A DNA stretch of 20,126 bases. Source: Ramicandelaber brevisporus (Eukaryota; Kickxellomycota; Ramicandelaberales; Ramicandelaberaceae). Shown one piece after another: positions 1 through 20,063 of the stretch (position 1 is the first letter of the stretch; each line of letters opens with the position of its first letter). The notes beneath the pieces were generated by a model. The model searched no databases and was not told where the DNA came from. It was given only the letters and a program-made list of their open reading frames with translations. Made by a program: the position numbers and the translations under genes. Location of the stretch: the NCBI GenBank assembly GCA_025201865.1, contig MU602676.1, positions 67,513 through 87,638 of the forward strand. The letters are read 5' to 3'.

Positions 1-43
1 CACAGGCAAGAGCAGTAAAGACGGCAATGGCAAGAATCTTCAT
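1..43 (-). CDS. 5' end of a gene for a secreted protein (partial, runs off the left edge)
   Basis: Read leftward from the ATG at 41-43, the first 14 codons give MKILAIAVFTALAC: one charged residue followed by a hydrophobic run ending in small residues. That is the n- and h-region of a typical eukaryotic signal peptide, so the product is probably secreted or enters the ER. Nothing of the mature protein is in the window, so its family cannot be named. A TATA-like element lies about 105 bp upstream, which supports this start. The weak point is length: 43 bases can look like a signal peptide by chance. Confidence 0.5.
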   Translation of the reverse strand, partial: MKILAIAVFTALAC

Positions 44-5772: not shown

Positions 5773-7344
5773 ATGGCACCAAAGAGACCAATGGGACTGG
5801 CCGGAGCGGCTCGCGCTCGTACCGCTGCTGCTTCTTCTGCCTCTTCTGCTGCTGCTGCTTCTGCTGCTGCTGAAGACTCTTCTCCTGTCAGCAACGCAAA
5901 GCGAGTTAGACTCACAAACGACAGCACAACGAGTGCAGCTGCCGACGGTGCCAAGGAGAGCGCCAGCGCAGAGGGTGAGGAGGAGGAGGTTGATGATGTC
6001 AGCGACGTTGTTAAGCTGTTCCAGGATGCGTGTGAAATGCGTGAGTCCGATCCAGAACAGTATGAGCAGCTTCTTCATGGCATTGTGAACGAATGTGACC
6101 GAATGGTTCGTGCCCATGTGCAGCAATTGATGGCTGAACTTGGGAGCGAGGATGCAGTTACCGAAGGCGAGCAGAAGGCCCGAGCAGAGAAGAACAACTT
6201 GCGCAGTGAGCGGATTAGTGCACGATTGAATGGTAAGAGTGTTGATGTCAAGGATGTGGATGGCAAGTTCTGGCTTCCAGCCGAGTTCTATTTGACGTAT
6301 GCTGGCGCATTGTACTGCCTTGTTGAAACGATGCCAAGCGATGACGACGACGACGATGATAATGAAGAGGATGACGAAGAGGAAAGCGAAAAGCCGTCAA
6401 ATGAGGACAAGATTGGATTCTATGAATTGGCGCTGGAGCAGCTTAAAAAGGCTCGTAGCAGCGATGTTACTGACTCTACGTTGAGTGAGTCTAGCCAACA
6501 AGCTGCAGCAAAGCGCGGTGCTGAGTATTCTGTGCATCACAATGCCATTGAGACTCTCGAATCCAACATCAACTTGTGCCTCATGTCGTTGGTTCCAGGT
6601 TCAACTGACGATGAGGATGAGGATGAGGATGAGAGCGATAATGAAGAGGACGAGGAGAGTGAGGAAGAAGCAAGTAAGCAAGTTGAGTATCTGGCAACTG
6701 CTGCCAGTGCAATTGATGACGTTGTCCAGCACTTTAACGACACCAATCAAACCAACACGGCTGATTTGGCAAAGCTGCTCAATTCTGCTCTTGTTCTTAT
6801 TCAGAGTGCACCTGCCTCCATCTCGGCCGACCACATTGTTCCTGTGATGCACCTGGTCCCGTCCACTATTGAGTCAGATGACACCGAGCTTAATGCTGCT
6901 CTTGGTCAGTGGTACTGGCACGTTGCTTCTGTCGTTATTGATGCTGCTGATGATGACGATAGTGATGATGATGATGATAGTGAGGATGAGGATGCTGTCA
7001 AGAGCAAGGCTAGTGGCTCTGCAGCTGGATCCAAGGCCGATGCCGAAGAGAGTGAAGTGAACTCTGCTCTTGTTGCATCAATCTGCGCTGAGCTTGATAC
7101 GGCCGCCATGTACCTCACCAAAGTTATCGACTCCAAGTCAGCTGACGACCATCTTCTTGCCAACACTCTGGTTACACTGGGCGAAGTTGAGCTCAACCGC
7201 GGCAACTACGAAGAATCCGAAGATGCCCAAAACTCAAAGTACGAAATTGCACGCAGCCACTTCCGCAAGGCGCAGACTCTGCTTAAATCGTACTGTGAGG
7301 ATCTTCCCGAACCCCTCCTGGACTTCCTTAACAATGATAATTAA
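5773..7344 (+). CDS. Ett1/Nro1 family protein (enhancer of translation termination / Ofd1 regulator)
   Basis: The start APKRPMGLAG matches the Ett1/Nro1 N terminus (basic, Lys-Arg-Pro-x-Gly-Leu), and LLHGIVNECDRMVRAH (about residues 100-115) matches the conserved Ile-Val-His-Glu-Cys-Asp-Arg segment. Further family-like blocks are FYLTYAGALYCL (about 174-185), GFYELALEQLKKA, and a C-terminal LVTLGEVELNRGNYEESEDA region with TPR-like helices. Budding yeast Ett1 supports translation termination with Tpa1. Fission yeast Nro1 imports and inhibits the dioxygenase Ofd1, controlling oxygen-dependent Sre1 turnover. At 523 aa it is longer than the roughly 400-aa yeast proteins. The excess is an Ala/Ser-rich segment (about 20-65) and three acidic insertions (about 187-210, 277-300 and 391-410) that break the helical repeats. 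An Ala/Ser-rich N terminus next to KRVR could hold a nuclear signal. Confidence 0.82.
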   Translation: MAPKRPMGLAGAARARTAAASSASSAAAASAAAEDSSPVSNAKRVRLTNDSTTSAAADGAKESASAEGEEEEVDDVSDVVKLFQDACEMRESDPEQYEQLLHGIVNECDRMVRAHVQQLMAELGSEDAVTEGEQKARAEKNNLRSERISARLNGKSVDVKDVDGKFWLPAEFYLTYAGALYCLVETMPSDDDDDDDNEEDDEEESEKPSNEDKIGFYELALEQLKKARSSDVTDSTLSESSQQAAAKRGAEYSVHHNAIETLESNINLCLMSLVPGSTDDEDEDEDESDNEEDEESEEEASKQVEYLATAASAIDDVVQHFNDTNQTNTADLAKLLNSALVLIQSAPASISADHIVPVMHLVPSTIESDDTELNAALGQWYWHVASVVIDAADDDDSDDDDDSEDEDAVKSKASGSAAGSKADAEESEVNSALVASICAELDTAAMYLTKVIDSKSADDHLLANTLVTLGEVELNRGNYEESEDAQNSKYEIARSHFRKAQTLLKSYCEDLPEPLLDFLNNDN

Positions 7345-8648: not shown

Positions 8649-9206
8649 CAGGCTATACAGTCAAGAATTTTATAAAGTAGAGACAGCAGTATTGACGCAA
8701 AACAAACACCAAGAATATAAGATGAACTAATCCTTTATCAAGTGAAAAGATGCAGCTGTCGCAATCTCATCTGGAGTATGAATAGACGGATGGTTATGAG
8801 TTACAGTACATTATACGTTTCCAGCAGCGAGACAGTCGTTGTATGTGTTTTTTTTTGTTATTTCACTCACTCGTTCGGTGTCGCCACAGCATGTTGCCAA
8901 TTGAAAATGAAGTTGATTCTGGAAAGAATAGGTAAGCTTTGATAGGAAGAGTGCTCATGCATATATGAGGGGAAAGTAGATGGGTTACCGATGTGATGTT
9001 GGTGCACTCAAAGTATCCAGACTTTCTTCCGCAGCAGAGGCTCCGATGCCCCAGAGTATATTTTGCACCGACTGACAACTGTCTGTTTGTCCTCCTCTTT
9101 TGGTCGCACGATTCTTCACCTCTTCCCGCATACATACACGAACAAGCAAGCAAGCAGACAAGCAGACAAGCAAGCAAACAGATAACTCTACAAACACTGA
9201 TAAGCA
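8649..9206. promoter_or_regulatory. Divergent promoter region between prephenate dehydratase and the H3-tail-like gene
   Basis: The 558-bp gap holds a TATA-like TTTATAAA on the minus strand at about 8668-8677, rather close to the dehydratase ATG. It also has a T run at about 8847-8857 and plus-strand TATA-like runs at about 8958-8966 and 9056-9065. A consensus-looking splice donor GTAAGC lies at 8932-8937. A pyrimidine-rich stretch (about 9076-9130) is preceded by CTGACAA. A run of AAGC/AGAC units (about 9143-9180) lies just before the downstream start. A leader intron for the downstream gene is therefore possible. No separate gene is supported. Confidence 0.4.
9143..9180 (+). repeat. AAGC/AGACA short tandem repeats in the leader of the H3-tail-like gene
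   Basis: Imperfect units of CAAG and CAGACAAG recur five to six times, ending about 27 bp before the ATG at 9207. Similar A/C/G-rich leaders precede other genes here (AAAC units before 10230, CAA/AAT units before 12085). This looks like a local habit of 5' untranslated regions rather than a specific site. Confidence 0.6.
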
Positions 9207-9983
9207 ATGGCAAGAACAAAGCAGTCTGCACGAAAACACCAAACTGGCGAAATGATACCGGAGATGATACCGCAGTCATTCAAAGTTGAATGTGGTGAAA
9301 TAGTTTATGGCCAGCTTCAGACGATTTGCCACGGATACCACGCAACAGCTCATGACAACTGGGTTTCTCCATACAACGACTATGATGATGAGCACGAAGA
9401 AGAAGAGAGTAATACAGGTTCAGTGACCCTGAAGACGCTGAACTTCAAGTGCGCTGCTCGCAATGGTGTTTGGCACGCCAAGAAGATTATGATGGAATCC
9501 GAGCGTGGACCAGAACTCTTGGGATACATGATACATCACTCTGATATCGATCCACAAGAACTGATGGACGAGGTGAAGAAGGTTCCATGCAACAGACCGC
9601 ATGATAACCCGAATGTCGGCTTGATTTATTGGAGCTCCTGGGGAGGCCACGAAGGATTGGGCATTCCAGACAACATTCCTGGACTCGGTGACAACATGAA
9701 GATTGACGAGGATATGATGGGTAGCCGAATTATGCTCTTCGACAGGGATAACATGTTAAAAGATGGATACGGTGTGCACATTCCAGTAAAATACTGCATG
9801 TACGAGAATGGATACCTCATCTACAGTGGCGAGAAACATGATACATTCACAGATTCTGACGAGCTGGTGGCACTCGTGTATGACAGCGATGAGATTATTG
9901 GTCACGCTTGTCCTGAAGATCCAAGTGAGGGATATCACAATTTTGAGGTGCTGGAGATTGACGGCACGGAAACATCCCAGTGA
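9207..9983 (+). CDS. Acidic 258-aa protein beginning with a histone H3 tail-like sequence
   Basis: The protein begins MARTKQSARKHQTGE. After Met removal, which Ala at position 2 favours, residues 1-9 equal histone H3 ARTKQTARK except Thr6 to Ser, keeping Arg2, Lys4, Arg8 and Lys9. Ser10 is lost (His), and TG follows one residue late. Nothing beyond resembles a histone: there is no histone fold, Lys14/Lys18 region or basic character. Instead there is a 12-bp tandem duplication (EMIP twice, residues 15-22), an acidic stretch (about 58-67), a Gly/Trp-rich segment (IYWSSWGGHEGLGIPDNIPG, about 137-156), and an acidic, probably beta-rich C terminus. There is no signal peptide or membrane segment. 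The start is strong: a TAA (9201-9203) sits in frame just upstream, with G at -3 and +4. The rest of the protein is not recognised. A mimic role is inference. Confidence 0.72.
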   Translation: MARTKQSARKHQTGEMIPEMIPQSFKVECGEIVYGQLQTICHGYHATAHDNWVSPYNDYDDEHEEEESNTGSVTLKTLNFKCAARNGVWHAKKIMMESERGPELLGYMIHHSDIDPQELMDEVKKVPCNRPHDNPNVGLIYWSSWGGHEGLGIPDNIPGLGDNMKIDEDMMGSRIMLFDRDNMLKDGYGVHIPVKYCMYENGYLIYSGEKHDTFTDSDELVALVYDSDEIIGHACPEDPSEGYHNFEVLEIDGTETSQ

Positions 9984-13521: not shown

Positions 13522-16500
13522 TTATTGAATGTCGCTGGATGGAGATGGAGTGACTGCAACTGATGGCGCATTTGATCCGTTGAAATTGTGGAGCATTTGA
13601 CCAATTCTGTACTCCTTTTCGCGAATATTCTCAAGCCATGGCTCAACGTGAATGCTTAACCGGTACAACATGAACACCAGCAATGCCACGGTCATCGCTG
13701 CTGGATACACAAGTTGAAGGAACTGCCATTGTGGCAGCAGCACTGTTACTACAACAATCGACAATGTTCAAGCCATGGCTCAACAATGCCACGGTCATCG
13801 CTGCTGGATACACAAGTTGAAGGAACTGCCATTGTGGCAGCAGCACTGTTACTACAACATTTGACGCTGGAATCGCAAAGTCTGCACTGACAACTGGGAT
13901 AATGCATGGCAACTTTGCAGAAATGTACTCAACGGCAGACGCAGAGTTGACCAAAGAAATTGCAACCAAGCTAGGAAGAACAGCAATCAGAGCAAATGTG
14001 AATGCCGATTGAGCAATGTACCAGATGGCTGTGCGCTGCTGCGTATCGAAGACAATGTATCGATCGTACAGTGCTTCCTTGATGGCTTGGACACGAGGGG
14101 ACTGTTCAAGTGGTCGCAAAATACGCCACAATGCGCGCGCAATCAAATAAGCCAGACCAACATCTTGAGCTGCATAAGTGACGGAGAAGGTGTCTGCAAT
14201 AGTTGCCGAGTTGTGAAGTGGAATCACAATGTACATGTGCACAATCAAGCTTGCCTCGAGGACAAGCAATCCAAGCAGCGCAAAGAGGAATTGGTACATG
14301 ATCAAATAAAGGACAGCTTTGCCGACAAGTGCAGCCAAATCGCTCCATTGTTTGCTCGAGAATGACTGCTTGATTTGTTTGAATCTCTCCATCGACAGCG
14401 CAAGGTAGCTGCCCGAGAACACAAATGCACCAAGTGTCAATGAGAACAAGTCATGCACATATGGCCGGCCAAGCACTGTGGCAAACAGCTTGCGACCAAC
14501 CAACACCGGCATGCCCAGTAGAAGCAACGCAACAAACAGCATAAACACAATCACTGACACACTGAATGCGATAAGACGCCACCAGAACAGAGGGGGCACG
14601 TACACTGCATTGTACTGCTCGGGTTTCGGTGCACGGAAACGCAATCCTTGGTCGTATTTGATATTGCGGCGGACGTATTCACGCGACTTGGCTTCAAGAA
14701 CTTCTGGGGCATGCTTGTCAGAGAGTGGGACATCATCAGCATCGACTGGGATGTGCTGTGGATAGCTTGGAGACAATCGCACATTGTTGACACGTGGACA
14801 GCGCACAAACCCACCATTTGGAATGAAGCCAACGTCAGGACCACCATACACTGTACCTTCCCGAGCACCGTTTGGATCGCGCAGATATGCATACGCATTT
14901 GGATGAGTCGCTTCGAACAACACATCGTCGCTCACAGCCATTGGACCCTTGTAATCTTTGTTTAACTTTACAACTCTACCCATCTCTTCACGTTTCATCT
15001 CGCCATATAAATACCACGACAGGCGCAACTGTGCAGCTAGGTATCGCATGGCGTGACTCAGTACCAAGCCGACTCGCTCTTGTGTAATTTGTTTCTGCAA
15101 AGTGTAGATGATCGCAAATTCCACCAAATAGTCCAGTGGAAGCTGAGGGAAGAGTGGCCAGCTAGTCAATCTAATGGGCAATAGGCCAGGGCTAAACACG
15201 TGACTAATTGCGGCAAAGCCAAAGAGGAATGAGAGAATGACACCCAGGTACATGAAGAAGCTGCGAGTAATTCGGCCCAGCATTGAAATAGCAGAGTGCA
15301 TTACAATCTCTTTGAATGGATCGGTTGAAGTGTCTTCGGGATCGCGAATGAACCAAATCACACCTGTGCGCAATAGTTTGCGAATTTCACGAACTAATTT
15401 GGAGAATGCCAGCATGAATATTGTGCCGATAAACCAGTGCATTGTTACGCTGGTCATTGGTGCAGAACGGAATGCCTCCCAGCGCGAAGAGAGTGTGGCA
15501 TCTGCAAAGAATAGGAGTGAGCTGAAGTTGATCGAAAAGCCAACCAACACTGGGAACAGCGCAAGCTCAATAAAGAAGAAAATCGCCACCTTGTTGATTG
15601 TAAATGTAACCTGCAATAAACTGTTCAATACTGGCGGCGTGTATGGTCCGTCCAAAACCAAGTAATAAAGAATGACGGCCATAAGAGTAGAGCCAACCAC
15701 CGCGGACAAGGCCGTGTTGGCAATACCATTGCTGTAAATGAGATATGCACGAAGTGACACAATGCGATCCATCACCGTCTGCAGAAGCACAGCTGGTGAC
15801 AACAACGACTGATCCACTTCAATCGTGAGCTTATACGGACCGAGGTATGCATTGATAAAAGATGCTGTCACAGACAGTAAGGCCAGTGCTTGGCGTGCGA
15901 TAGAGTTGAATCCATCGAGTGTAGCCATCAATGAAGGATGCAGAGCCAGGTTTCTAACACCATCTATAACTTTGATACTAGCCGATGACTGATCAAGTAG
16001 ATACGCAGATAAAACAGTTGAAACCGCCTCAATGGCCAAAGCAGTGTTTCCAATAAGTCCAAAGAAGTTACTGCCCAGAGTGATTAATGTAAATGTATAT
16101 GGAATCCACAAACCAGTGACCATCATCAATATCACAACTAAGAACACAACTGCTCCGTATTGCACAATATTAGCCATTGGCCCAAAGAATCCCATTGCTT
16201 CGAAAATACCATCAAACCCGTCAATTCCCATCACTGCATCATCTTCAAATCCATCATCCAGCTGTCCACCCATGGCCAATCCATCATTCACCGCTGGGAC
16301 TGGGACTGGGGCTGGAACTTGGACTGGAGCTTGCTGAGGAGGTCGAACGATCACTGGCGGCTGTGGTGGTGGAGCAGCAATACGAGGTTCATCATTGTTG
16401 GCAGGAATATGTGGGACTGGTAGATCCTGCACAAGTGGCTCATCGACATCAATATCATCCTCAAGTGTCTCCCAGTCATGATCATCATTGTCAATGGCAT

Positions 16501-17869
16501 CGCTATCATCGGTGTCAATGACATCGTCGTCATCACTGTCATCATCATCATTGTCACTGTCAGGTACATCGGCCCAAAAGGCTCGTTCAGGCAAGTCGGC
16601 ATTTCCAGCTTCTCCTGCTGTCGCTGTTATCGTTGTTCTTGCCGCTGCTTCTGTTTCTGGCTGACCGGGTGGATATGGACCATCAAGCGCGAGACCGAAT
16701 GTTGGGTGATCTGGGGCTAAAACACCACGCTGGATAGCAGTGAGCAGCATTGAAGCTTGTCTGTCATTATGCTCAATGACAAGTGGATCGTCCAGTGTTT
16801 CCACATAATTTGGATTGGTTGCTCTCCGACGTTGAAGTGCAATGGTTGCCGCATACTCTTCAAGAACAGCGACCGTAACTGGACCTTCAGGCTGATTGTC
16901 CGCTTGTGCTGCATCGTTGGCTGCCACCGCTGCTGCTGCTGGCTGGCCTGCTACTGGTTGAGCATTGACTTCGTCCTCGTCGTCATCATGCACGTTAAAC
17001 ACCACCCATTCACGGAGAGTCAGCAAAATGAGGAATGTGGCCAATCCCAGCGCAACGAGCGCGAGACCACGTCCGGCATCAGCTGCCACAGCATGAATGC
17101 CATCAGAGTTTTCATGATACCATCTTATCACTCCAGTTAGCTCCGAATTCTTTGCAACTTCACCAGCAGTCTCCTCAACCATTGGCAAGTCTTCAGGCCA
17201 GAATACTGAGCCTATTTGACGCCACAGTCTCAATGAAGTTTGCTCGGCTGTGTGTTTAGCTAGCACTGCATACGATCCTGCAACAGACCACATTGCCTCT
17301 GCCAACCGTGGCAATAGCATATAATACGATCCAGATTCAGCATCGCTAATGCCATCATCCTCACCATAACCAGTGCCTGGAATAGTCGCATTGCCCGCCT
17401 GAATATCTCCACTCATGTCTTTAGTTGCACCAGAGCTAAAATGCCGGTCACCCGACAGTTTGAATGCAGCCATCTTTGAAGACCACAGTAGTATCCTTGT
17501 AACCCACAATACCTGCAGCGGAATTAATAATCCCCAGACCATAACCACCATTACAAACCTCATTGCCTTAACCAACAGCGCCGTCGTTTGAATCGCAGCC
17601 TGTCTCAATACAACTGATCCAGGCAGAGTTGAGGGCATGTCTGGTGCAAACAGCGGCGTGAATCGAAACGTGTGGCCACAGAGTTCACAGGCGTCTTTGC
17701 TGCTGTGCTCAAGCCATTCAGCAAGACACTGCTGATGAACGTAGCGAATGCTGCCGGTGCACTTGCAAGGGTAGAAGAGTGGTTCGTCATCATCGGCGTC
17801 ACCAGAGCCAGCGCCGCCGCGGCACACACGGCAGATGGCGTCTGCCGGTAAAGGTGCTGAAGAACTCAT
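13522..17869 (-). CDS. DOA10: Doa10/MARCH6 ER E3 ubiquitin ligase, reading frame broken near its 3' end
   Basis: A RING-CH ubiquitin ligase of the ER and inner nuclear membrane that marks degron-bearing and misfolded proteins for degradation. Residues 13-64 carry the C4HC3 zinc set: Cys13, Cys16, Cys35, Cys37, His45, Cys48, Cys61, Cys64, with YPCKCTGSIRYVHQQCLAEW and CELCGHTFRFTPLFAPDMP as in the family. Many hydrophobic segments follow, with an acidic, Pro-rich loop (about 425-545). The continuous frame runs from 17869 to a stop at 13643 (1408 aa) but ends in unrelated sequence. The true family C-terminal element, ENIREKEYRIGQMLHNFN, lies in another frame ending at 13522. A 103-bp quasi-duplication (repeat units 13681-13756 and 13784-13859) separates them. 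Removing 103 bp would give 1415 codons including the stop. Whether this is a real lesion, an intron or an assembly error is open. Confidence 0.9.
13681..13859. repeat. Tandem quasi-duplication of 76 bp in the Doa10 3' coding region
   Basis: Bases 13681-13756 and 13784-13859 are identical over 76 bp, offset 103. Just left of the second copy, a 17-bp stretch (13768-13784) repeats 13631-13647, but the 33 bp that separate it from the first copy (13648-13680) are missing. The second arrangement is thus a rejoined, internally deleted copy rather than a simple tandem repeat. 103 is not a multiple of three, so it shifts the Doa10 frame. Confidence 0.9.
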
Positions 17870-18494: not shown

Positions 18495-20063
18495 ATGCCA
18501 CCAAAACGACGCCGTACCACCACTGCGCTCTCCACTGCTCTGGACAACCTGCGTGCCAAGATCCGCAGCTTTGCGGACACTGCTGATGAAGAGCAGCTGC
18601 GCGAAGTGGCTCAGCTGATTGATATCCTCGGCATCTCCAACCACGGGCCGTTCCGTCTTCCGGATCTGCCGTATGAGTTGCTGGAGTATACTGCAGAAAG
18701 ATACTTTACTCGTCTAGAGGCTGCACCAATCTTGCCAGTGAATCGAGTATTCAATGAGCTCTTTGCTAATAGAGTCTGGAAATGTGTTGAGCTCGATGGA
18801 ACGAAGGTGAATGGCTGCAAAGTACCAATGCATGTGTTAATGAAGAACGTTCGACGCATCCGAACAGCTGAGTTGGGGCTCATTAAGCCCAATTTCTTTG
18901 TCTCTGGCTACTTTCATTACGCTACGTCGATTACCTTTGATATCAAAAAAGATATAGAAATGATGTTCACACTCCATCTCGAACAGATGAAAAACCTTCG
19001 CCATGTGACTCTCAGAATCAAAGACACATCGAATAGTGTGATTGATGCAGCAGCCAGATGGATTGATGACAGCCATCGTAGTGGACATGTTCAGCAGATC
19101 GTGATCCGTGCATCTTACTATCCAAGCAAATACCATGGAATTCATACATTGGCATCGCTGATGGACATGATCAAGTTCAAGAAGCGCACTCGTCTCGATT
19201 GTGCACATCGGGAGCCATTTCCAAACAGCATCATTCAGTATATGCCAGCCACACTTACCATTCTGAACATAGCCCAAAGAGCACTAACACGCTGTCACGG
19301 TGAGATCAACAAGCAAGTTTTCGGAGCAGACCCAGAATCTGTCTTCGTGCATCTACGTACACTTCTCGTCCAGGTGTGCTGCAGCAATTCGAGTCTCTAC
19401 GACTTCCAATCATTTGTCCCTGAGCGCTTTCCCGTTCTCAGCTACCTTGCTATGTGCATACCAGAGAGATGCTGCAATGGTGGTGTAGGTGCTCCGCTTG
19501 CGACAATCTTTTCCAATAAGCAATGGCCGTCTATCACAGATTTGAGGCTTGTTGGCGATAACACAATGGTGCCAGGTATTGGCCGACTGCTGTTTGAAGC
19601 GATGCCTGCTCTCCAGAGATGCACTCTTCAGAATATGGCTGAAGTTGACATTTCATCTGATCCGGACACGTGTCTGACCATCTCCAAGTTGTCTTTAATT
19701 GGTACTTCTTTTGAAACGAGTCATCTTGTAGGCAAGCTTCCATGTCTTGTTTATCTGGAGTTGGATTTCATGGACATTGGCTTGAACCGTTTGCAGCTCA
19801 TGGCATCTTGCAAGCGACTTGTGGAAATCAAACTGACGGACTGCGATATTACGGACGATGCAATTGCGGCATTATACAAGTATCCGTGCAATTCAGTCCA
19901 CAAGGCTGTGATCTCAAAAGACAAGGATGATGATTTTACGGACCGCATAGCTCATCTACTGCCCGCATTTCCAAATATTCGTATATTGGACTTGGCAACT
20001 GTTCCAGAGGACAAACGAATGAAATTTGTCTTAAAATGTCCAACTATCAATATCATTACTTAA
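18495..20063 (+). CDS. F-box-like protein with leucine-rich repeats
   Basis: The 522-aa frame from the ATG at 18495 begins with a basic PPKRRR stretch. About residues 49-98 fit an F-box: FRLPDLPYELLEYTAERYF, then PVNRVFNELFANRVWKCVEL, with the leading Leu-Pro, a central helix and the Asn-Arg-x-Phe/Trp end. The remainder is leucine-rich and irregular, with recognisable repeats near the C terminus (LVYLELDFMDIGLNRLQLM, LVEIKLTDCDITDDAIAAL, FPNIRILDLATVP). By family knowledge such proteins bind Skp1 through the F-box and recruit substrates to SCF ubiquitin ligases through the repeats. The substrate is unknown. Non-Dikarya fungi often carry many divergent paralogues of this type. An alternative start at 18423 would add 24 residues. 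The F-box match is by eye and moderately degenerate. Confidence 0.75.
   Translation: MPPKRRRTTTALSTALDNLRAKIRSFADTADEEQLREVAQLIDILGISNHGPFRLPDLPYELLEYTAERYFTRLEAAPILPVNRVFNELFANRVWKCVELDGTKVNGCKVPMHVLMKNVRRIRTAELGLIKPNFFVSGYFHYATSITFDIKKDIEMMFTLHLEQMKNLRHVTLRIKDTSNSVIDAAARWIDDSHRSGHVQQIVIRASYYPSKYHGIHTLASLMDMIKFKKRTRLDCAHREPFPNSIIQYMPATLTILNIAQRALTRCHGEINKQVFGADPESVFVHLRTLLVQVCCSNSSLYDFQSFVPERFPVLSYLAMCIPERCCNGGVGAPLATIFSNKQWPSITDLRLVGDNTMVPGIGRLLFEAMPALQRCTLQNMAEVDISSDPDTCLTISKLSLIGTSFETSHLVGKLPCLVYLELDFMDIGLNRLQLMASCKRLVEIKLTDCDITDDAIAALYKYPCNSVHKAVISKDKDDDFTDRIAHLLPAFPNIRILDLATVPEDKRMKFVLKCPTINIIT

Follow-up and report, generated by a model that had tools for sequence, protein, structure and literature searches.

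A histone H3-like N terminus on a diverged member of a eukaryotic protein family in Ramicandelaber brevisporus

Among the closest described counterparts of the locus considered here are non-histone proteins whose N termini resemble the tail of histone H3. In the parts of the two reports drawn on here, the H3-like N terminus of PAF15 is recognised and ubiquitylated by UHRF1 (PMC7060239), and the N-terminal SNAG peptide of GFI1 imitates the H3 tail and acts with LSD1 (PMC5896174). Two other cases went the opposite way: in the portion of PMC3022755 used here, HP1 binding was not seen for a methylated peptide from the ARKS region of ADNP, and the corresponding portion of PMC10833455 reports that ORF8 does not act as a histone mimic.

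The ORF at 9207 and the placement of its start

The window, that is, the whole stretch of 20,126 nt of R. brevisporus DNA that was analysed, contains an ORF (Table 1) whose first residues are MARTKQSARKHQTGE (in longer form, MARTKQSARKHQTGEMIPE); the H3 gene of the same genome (L009) opens MARTKQTARKSTGGK. As a sequence-only reading of the window had claimed, the two agree over H3 residues 1-9, where eight of the nine positions after the Met are identical and the sole change is Thr6 to Ser. The tenth residue is His in the window protein and Ser in H3, and the H3-likeness ends after K9. The pLDDT is below 50 over residues 1-15, so that the tail is predicted to be disordered. The same reading had described the body as acidic and not histone-like; indeed, residues 14-258 contain 47 D+E versus 16 K+R, and a Pfam scan of the window protein gave no family at E ≤ 1, histone included. 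The ORF locus is also absent among the 12 PF00125 matches listed for the R. brevisporus genome.

Table 1. Positions in the window, with the tail peptide and named members of the body family (columns: feature, position, strand, remarks)
ORF	9207..9983	+	Intact and intronless; 258 codons and a stop; belongs to a eukaryotic family without a Pfam name
MARTKQSARK segment	9207..9236	+	Matches H3 residues 1-9 at eight of nine positions past the Met; disorder predicted
Tail peptide, counterpart of H3 1-14			ARTKQSARKHQTGE
Body, residues 14-258	9246..9980	+	Starts at the GE common to paralogues; motifs GQ.Q, AAR.G.W, H.D, SG.KH..F..SDEL
YWSS, residues 141-144	9627..9638	+	In place of the conserved NRYD, lost here
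In-frame TAA	9201..9203	+	Two codons 5' of the ATG, with a TGA ahead of it; closes the frame unless bridged by an intron
Probable 5' leader	9110..9206	+	CT-rich tract, then CAAG/ACAA-rich part ending AGCAATG; by eye, function inferred
First exon of NCBI model P0001 (GQ42DRAFT_176083)	8907..8931	+	Encodes MKLILERI; probably a wrong gene model
NCBI-model intron	8932..9303	+	372 nt, GT...AG; would excise the H3-like tail and 18 more residues alignable with paralogues
TPR-like protein	5773-7344	+	Acidic; two genes upstream of the ORF
RINGv membrane-protein gene	13643-17869	-	RINGv match
85-nt direct duplication	13678-13762 and 13781-13865		96% identical; 3' end of the RINGv gene
F-box-like/LRR-like protein	18495-20063	+	Named by eye
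Family members in R. brevisporus			GQ42DRAFT_16222, GQ42DRAFT_177339, GQ42DRAFT_179373
Family members in Naegleria			N. fowleri FDP41_001946; N. lovaniensis C9374_009288
Other named family members			Willaertia magna ABK040_000345; Phlegmacium glaucopus BYT27DRAFT_7203284

The motif had been placed directly after an in-frame TAA, and this stop does lie in frame, one codon (GCA) before the ATG. The leader ahead of 9207 resembles, by eye, the leaders of two further family copies in the genome, L003 and L002, which are likewise CT-rich and then ACAA/CAAG-rich and end AGCAATG and AACAATG, respectively. Moreover, the annotated start of the paralogue P0002 is at the equivalent position, and its first 15 residues align with those of the window protein without a gap. 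The NCBI model P0001 contradicts this start: joining 8907-8931 to 9304 onward gives P0001 exactly, and P0001 and the window protein are identical from IVYGQ to the end. However, the stretch that the model skips, GEMIPEMIPQSFKVECGE, aligns with P0002, P0003, P0004 and the L002 copy, and no CTRAY motif was found in the 100 nt nearest the acceptor; given also the equivalent start of P0002, the NCBI model is probably wrong. If the same donor were instead joined to the AG at 9203-9204, the frame would be kept and the motif would lie inside the product (MKLILERIAMARTKQSARK, also written MKLILERIAMARTKQ); this second splice is unlikely because the only near CTRAY (CTGAT at 9197) is less than 10 nt from the acceptor. 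Judged from the sequence, the ATG at 9207 is well placed and is probably the start: the stops ahead of it, its leader and the ungapped alignment with P0002 speak for it, and the NCBI model, which splices the tail out, speaks against it.

The neighbours of this gene include the acidic TPR-like protein, which matches TPR_12 below the cut-off (E 0.0028) and which may be NASP/Sim3-like or Nro1/Ett1-like. The RINGv membrane protein is presumably Doa10-like, and the near-identical duplication, whether genuine or an artefact of assembly, shapes the C-terminal end of its long reading frame. The F-box-like/LRR-like protein, for which there was no Pfam match above the cut-off, has, counting itself, at least 93 matches in the R. 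brevisporus genome (of 216 candidates, 83 were scored), and at least eight of the other copies are at least 65% identical to it over at least 440 residues.

The body family and the variability of the tail

The family of the body, which the earlier reading had left to be sought by homology searches, turned out to be one without a Pfam name. A single-sequence search retrieved P0002 at E 1e-67, and a profile search retrieved the Naegleria protein P0005 at E 6e-36, with 15 matches in all, among them the protein's own NCBI record. Over the body, identity between the window protein and these relatives (P0002-P0015) is 43-46% for the R. brevisporus paralogues and 24-32% for the distant members. In the other aligned rows, the N, R and Y of the NRYD motif are present in 14 of 14 and the D in 13 of 14; the window protein has lost the motif and retains W145. 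No other of the 15 rows deviates so often from the strongly conserved columns: the window protein does so at 11 of 42 and the others at 0 to 8, the next most diverged row being P0013, with 8 of 38. By its sequence, the window protein is thus a diverged member of the family, by descent and not by the NRYD motif.

In one relative, the eukprot transcript P0014, a PBZ finger precedes the body (E 1.5e-13); the finger is absent from the other 14 of the 15 proteins scanned with Pfam (5 + 10) and from the window protein. PBZ fingers are PAR-binding, and, going by the part of PMC4245714 used here, the presence of the finger in P0014 is in keeping with a nuclear role for the family. Further full copies in the R. 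brevisporus genome are L002 and L003 (the latter being P0004), and fragments are present at L004 (with a stop), L005 and L006. With P0002 as the query of the R. brevisporus assembly, only the six places already known were recovered, and P0002 itself was not found. L002 and L003 are a segmental duplication; by eye, their flanks are alike on both sides, with a zinc-finger-like frame upstream and an F-box-like frame downstream. Similar F-box-like genes lie, again by eye, directly downstream of three copies or remnants of the body family (L002, L003 and L005). Occurring in fungi and Heterolobosea, unannotated and with one PBZ fusion, the family deserves a name and a test.

If ARTKQ.ARK were kept for its own sake, it might be expected to outlast the rest of the protein, as the sequence-only reading had envisaged; among the paralogues, the opposite is found. 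Between P0002 and the window protein, 4 of 12 tail positions are identical (A, R, K and S) versus 109 of 243 body positions (45%), and none of the aligned tail positions is shared with P0003 (0 of 6), P0004 (0 of 8) or L002 (0 of 8). An ARTKQ start occurs in none of the 13 other family members with a predicted N terminus, a count that covers paralogues and distant homologues and sets aside the fragments P0007 and P0015 as well as P0001, which is the same gene. Three protein searches found no orthologue outside R. brevisporus, and the comparison is accordingly one of paralogues and distant homologues. In a tree of 14 rows (P0007 and P0015 being left out), the window protein stands beside P0002 and P0003 with modest supports of 88/90 and 85/74. 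Since P0003, within this grouping, starts MIDSTDSG, the simplest history suggested by the sequences is that the H3-like tail was gained in the window lineage alone. The start of P0002 keeps MAR.K.S, and its gapless alignment over the first 15 residues, with A, R, K and S in common, suggests that a basic start of this kind probably predates the H3-like residues.

Kinship with H3, rarity and the competing explanations

Descent of the tail from a real H3 tail, at which the earlier reading had hinted, is not supported: the DNA shows no trace of it, and in the paralogues the same position holds a variable tail. The tail DNA is identical to that of the organism's own H3 at 21 of 30 nucleotides (3 of 10 third positions), and the same peptide written with independently drawn codons gives a mean of 22.9 of 30, with 94% of the draws at 21 or more. 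There is therefore no sign of copying from H3, and the ORF is not an H3 gene, an assembly join with one or a recent H3 copy; the join had been named as an outcome that would undo the earlier reading, and it is excluded at the DNA level. The proposed alignment of HQTGE to STGGK with a one-residue shift is not supported either: G14 is the same in all five aligned R. brevisporus members and E15 is common to the window protein, P0002, P0004 and L002, so that, on the alignment, the GE of TGE belongs to the body family and not to STGGK.

How rare such a start should be was estimated with composition models, which took residue frequencies from three sources. The probability of at least eight of nine matches per protein is 1.1e-9 (from the eight other window proteins), 5.4e-9 (from their N termini) or 2.0e-9 (from the family tails), which corresponds to 1.1e-5 to 5.4e-5 such starts expected per 10,000 genes. 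Given the MAR.K.S of P0002, the probability of the remaining five residues (T, Q, A, R and K) is about 8e-7. In the R. brevisporus genome, the MARTKQ pattern is found at three places, namely this ORF and two H3 genes. The shorter MARTK pattern is found at ten, of which two read MASTK and eight MARTK; these eight are the two H3 genes, the ORF and five that are not gene starts, being either short frames or part of a longer one.

As an empirical null, the degenerate pattern MARTKQxA was scanned over prokaryote and viral contig collections, which gave 61 matches in 55 + 6 stretches; position 3 is Arg in 49 of these matches. Ten reach eight or nine of nine. Eight of these continue as H3 and are presumably eukaryote contaminants; the other two frames, on prokaryote-labelled contigs (L063 and L046), are 19 and 28 aa long. 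The latter two read MARTKQTARK followed by non-H3 sequence and are possibly H3 first exons interrupted by an intron after K9. Three matches open ORFs of at least 100 aa without an earlier in-frame start, one being H3 and the other two being related 109-aa Caulobacteraceae ORFs (L068 and L077) that open MARTKQSAE, or six of nine. The scan is blind to eight-of-nine matches that differ within the first six residues or at Ala7, and among the places visible to it no non-histone ORF of at least 100 aa reaches eight of nine. The models and the scan together indicate that an eight-of-nine match is rare, yet that partial H3-like starts do arise by chance; the number of motifs and windows in which something might have been noticed is not measurable.

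The favoured explanation, to which we give a probability of about 0.6, is that the resemblance arose by chance in the unconstrained, disordered and fast-changing tail of a diverged paralogue. The gene belongs to a small R. brevisporus expansion of this Pfam-unnamed eukaryotic family. Its body is predicted to fold as a compact alpha/beta unit, for which the GntR/UTRA effector-domain fold is a tentative comparison and which in one relative is preceded by the PAR-binding zinc finger; its N-terminal 13 residues form a short extension, predicted to be disordered, whose length and sequence differ from member to member. In the window copy, with NRYD lost and constraint probably changed or relaxed, a tail of the basic MAR.K.S type that is still seen in P0002 would have drifted until it happened to equal H3 1-9 at eight of nine positions. 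If the protein is expressed, Met removal would leave a free Ala-Arg-Thr-Lys, and methylation by a Set1-type enzyme or binding by an H3 reader would be incidental and dependent on nuclear location, with the body doing the protein's work; the resemblance to H3 would then not have been selected. Against chance count the expectation of 1e-5 to 5e-5 per 10,000 genes, the presence of both ARTK and ARK, and the exact placement of the free Ala, and chance keeps its lead solely because there were many motifs and many windows in which a likeness could have been noticed, which is a factor of unmeasurable size. Selected mimicry is less probable and is to be held tentatively; here the paralogue would have traded an ancestral NRYD-dependent activity for a tail that readers or writers treat as H3 and that recruits or titrates chromatin enzymes. 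Such mimicry would account for a rare eight-of-nine match (rare by the composition models and by the collection scan) that is exactly N-terminal and has both the K4 and K9 contexts, on a tail that is predicted to be disordered and hence accessible, and the loss of NRYD fits a change of function. The Set1-type writer that the sequence-only reading presupposed is encoded in the genome: L038 is Set1/MLL-like by sequence, and the best PDB matches of its SET region are H3 lysine-4 specific methyltransferase chains (E 5.5e-34), followed by KMT2A. That Set1-type methylation would act on K4, and PHD or WD40 readers on A1-R2-T3-K4, belongs to the same tentative reading and is no likelier. The passages used here on the PBZ finger (PMC4245714), on PAF15 and UHRF1 (PMC7060239) and on GFI1 SNAG and LSD1 (PMC5896174) add a hint of nuclear work and precedents for N-terminal H3-like peptides that act. 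However, the aligned relatives do not share the tail. The match also exceeds what function alone would require, the H3 mimics known to us matching over fewer residues. Furthermore, H3-like motifs have misled before, at least in the portions consulted of the reports on ADNP ARKS (PMC3022755) and ORF8 (PMC10833455).

Two other accounts are less probable still. That the protein in the cell does not begin with the H3-like tail, the latter being removed in the NCBI splice form or made internal by use of the AG at 9203-9204, is unlikely: P0001 is reproduced exactly by its two exons, and the junction of the 8931 donor with that AG keeps the frame, but the NCBI form loses 18 residues that align with P0002, P0003, P0004 and L002 with LP, F and GEIV at fixed places, neither acceptor has a well-placed CTRAY, and both the equivalent start of P0002 and the leaders of L002 and L003 favour 9207. 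An ancient recombination event that brought in the 5' part of an H3 gene, with the silent-site likeness later lost, would explain the length of the match, its exact start and the abrupt end of the H3-like residues after K9. It is nevertheless very improbable, given that the nucleotide trace is absent (21 of 30, with 22.9 expected), that the organism's own H3 gene is one open frame without an intron after K9, that the gapless N terminus of P0002 suggests that a tail of equal length was already present, and that GE belongs to the body family; moreover, a peptide kept while its codons were lost would itself need selection.

Comparison with known systems

Coincidence in the tail thus remains the preferred reading, and the locus would be of use on either outcome. 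If the tail is not a case of mimicry, it offers an estimate of the chance frequency of H3-like N termini and hence a yardstick for claims of mimicry based on short motifs. If, as is doubtful, a paralogue lacking the core motif does present a nine-residue imitation of H3 with a free Ala, and is through it methylated at Lys4 and Lys9 or bound by H3 readers, the cell would be making a non-histone protein with nearly the whole K4-K9 segment of H3 on a body possibly linked to PAR and DNA damage, and this protein might act as a decoy, a recruiter or a chaperone. A tail acting as H3 would be a natural, long and cell-made mimic and a clean tool for studying how readers and writers distinguish H3 from look-alikes.

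The likeness to the organism's own H3 is confined to residues 1-9, identical save for T6S; the window protein differs in having no histone fold, in its codons and in showing nothing H3-like past K9. The H3 match of PAF15 is shorter than that of the window protein. Both are non-histones with an N terminus that resembles H3, and in PAF15, according to the part of PMC7060239 used here, it is readable as H3 and is ubiquitylated by UHRF1, whereas the window tail is a candidate by its sequence. Similarly, the SNAG domain of GFI1 and SNAI1 is an LSD1-binding imitation of the H3 tail at the N terminus (PMC5896174, in the part used here); it is common to a family of transcription repressors, whereas the window tail is not shared by its relatives. 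P0014 has a PBZ finger ahead of the body, unlike the window protein. With its relatives P0002-P0015 as a whole, the window protein has in common the GQ.Q, AAR.G.W, H.D, SG.KH and DEL motifs, and among the aligned rows it is the only member that opens ARTKQSARK and has lost NRYD.
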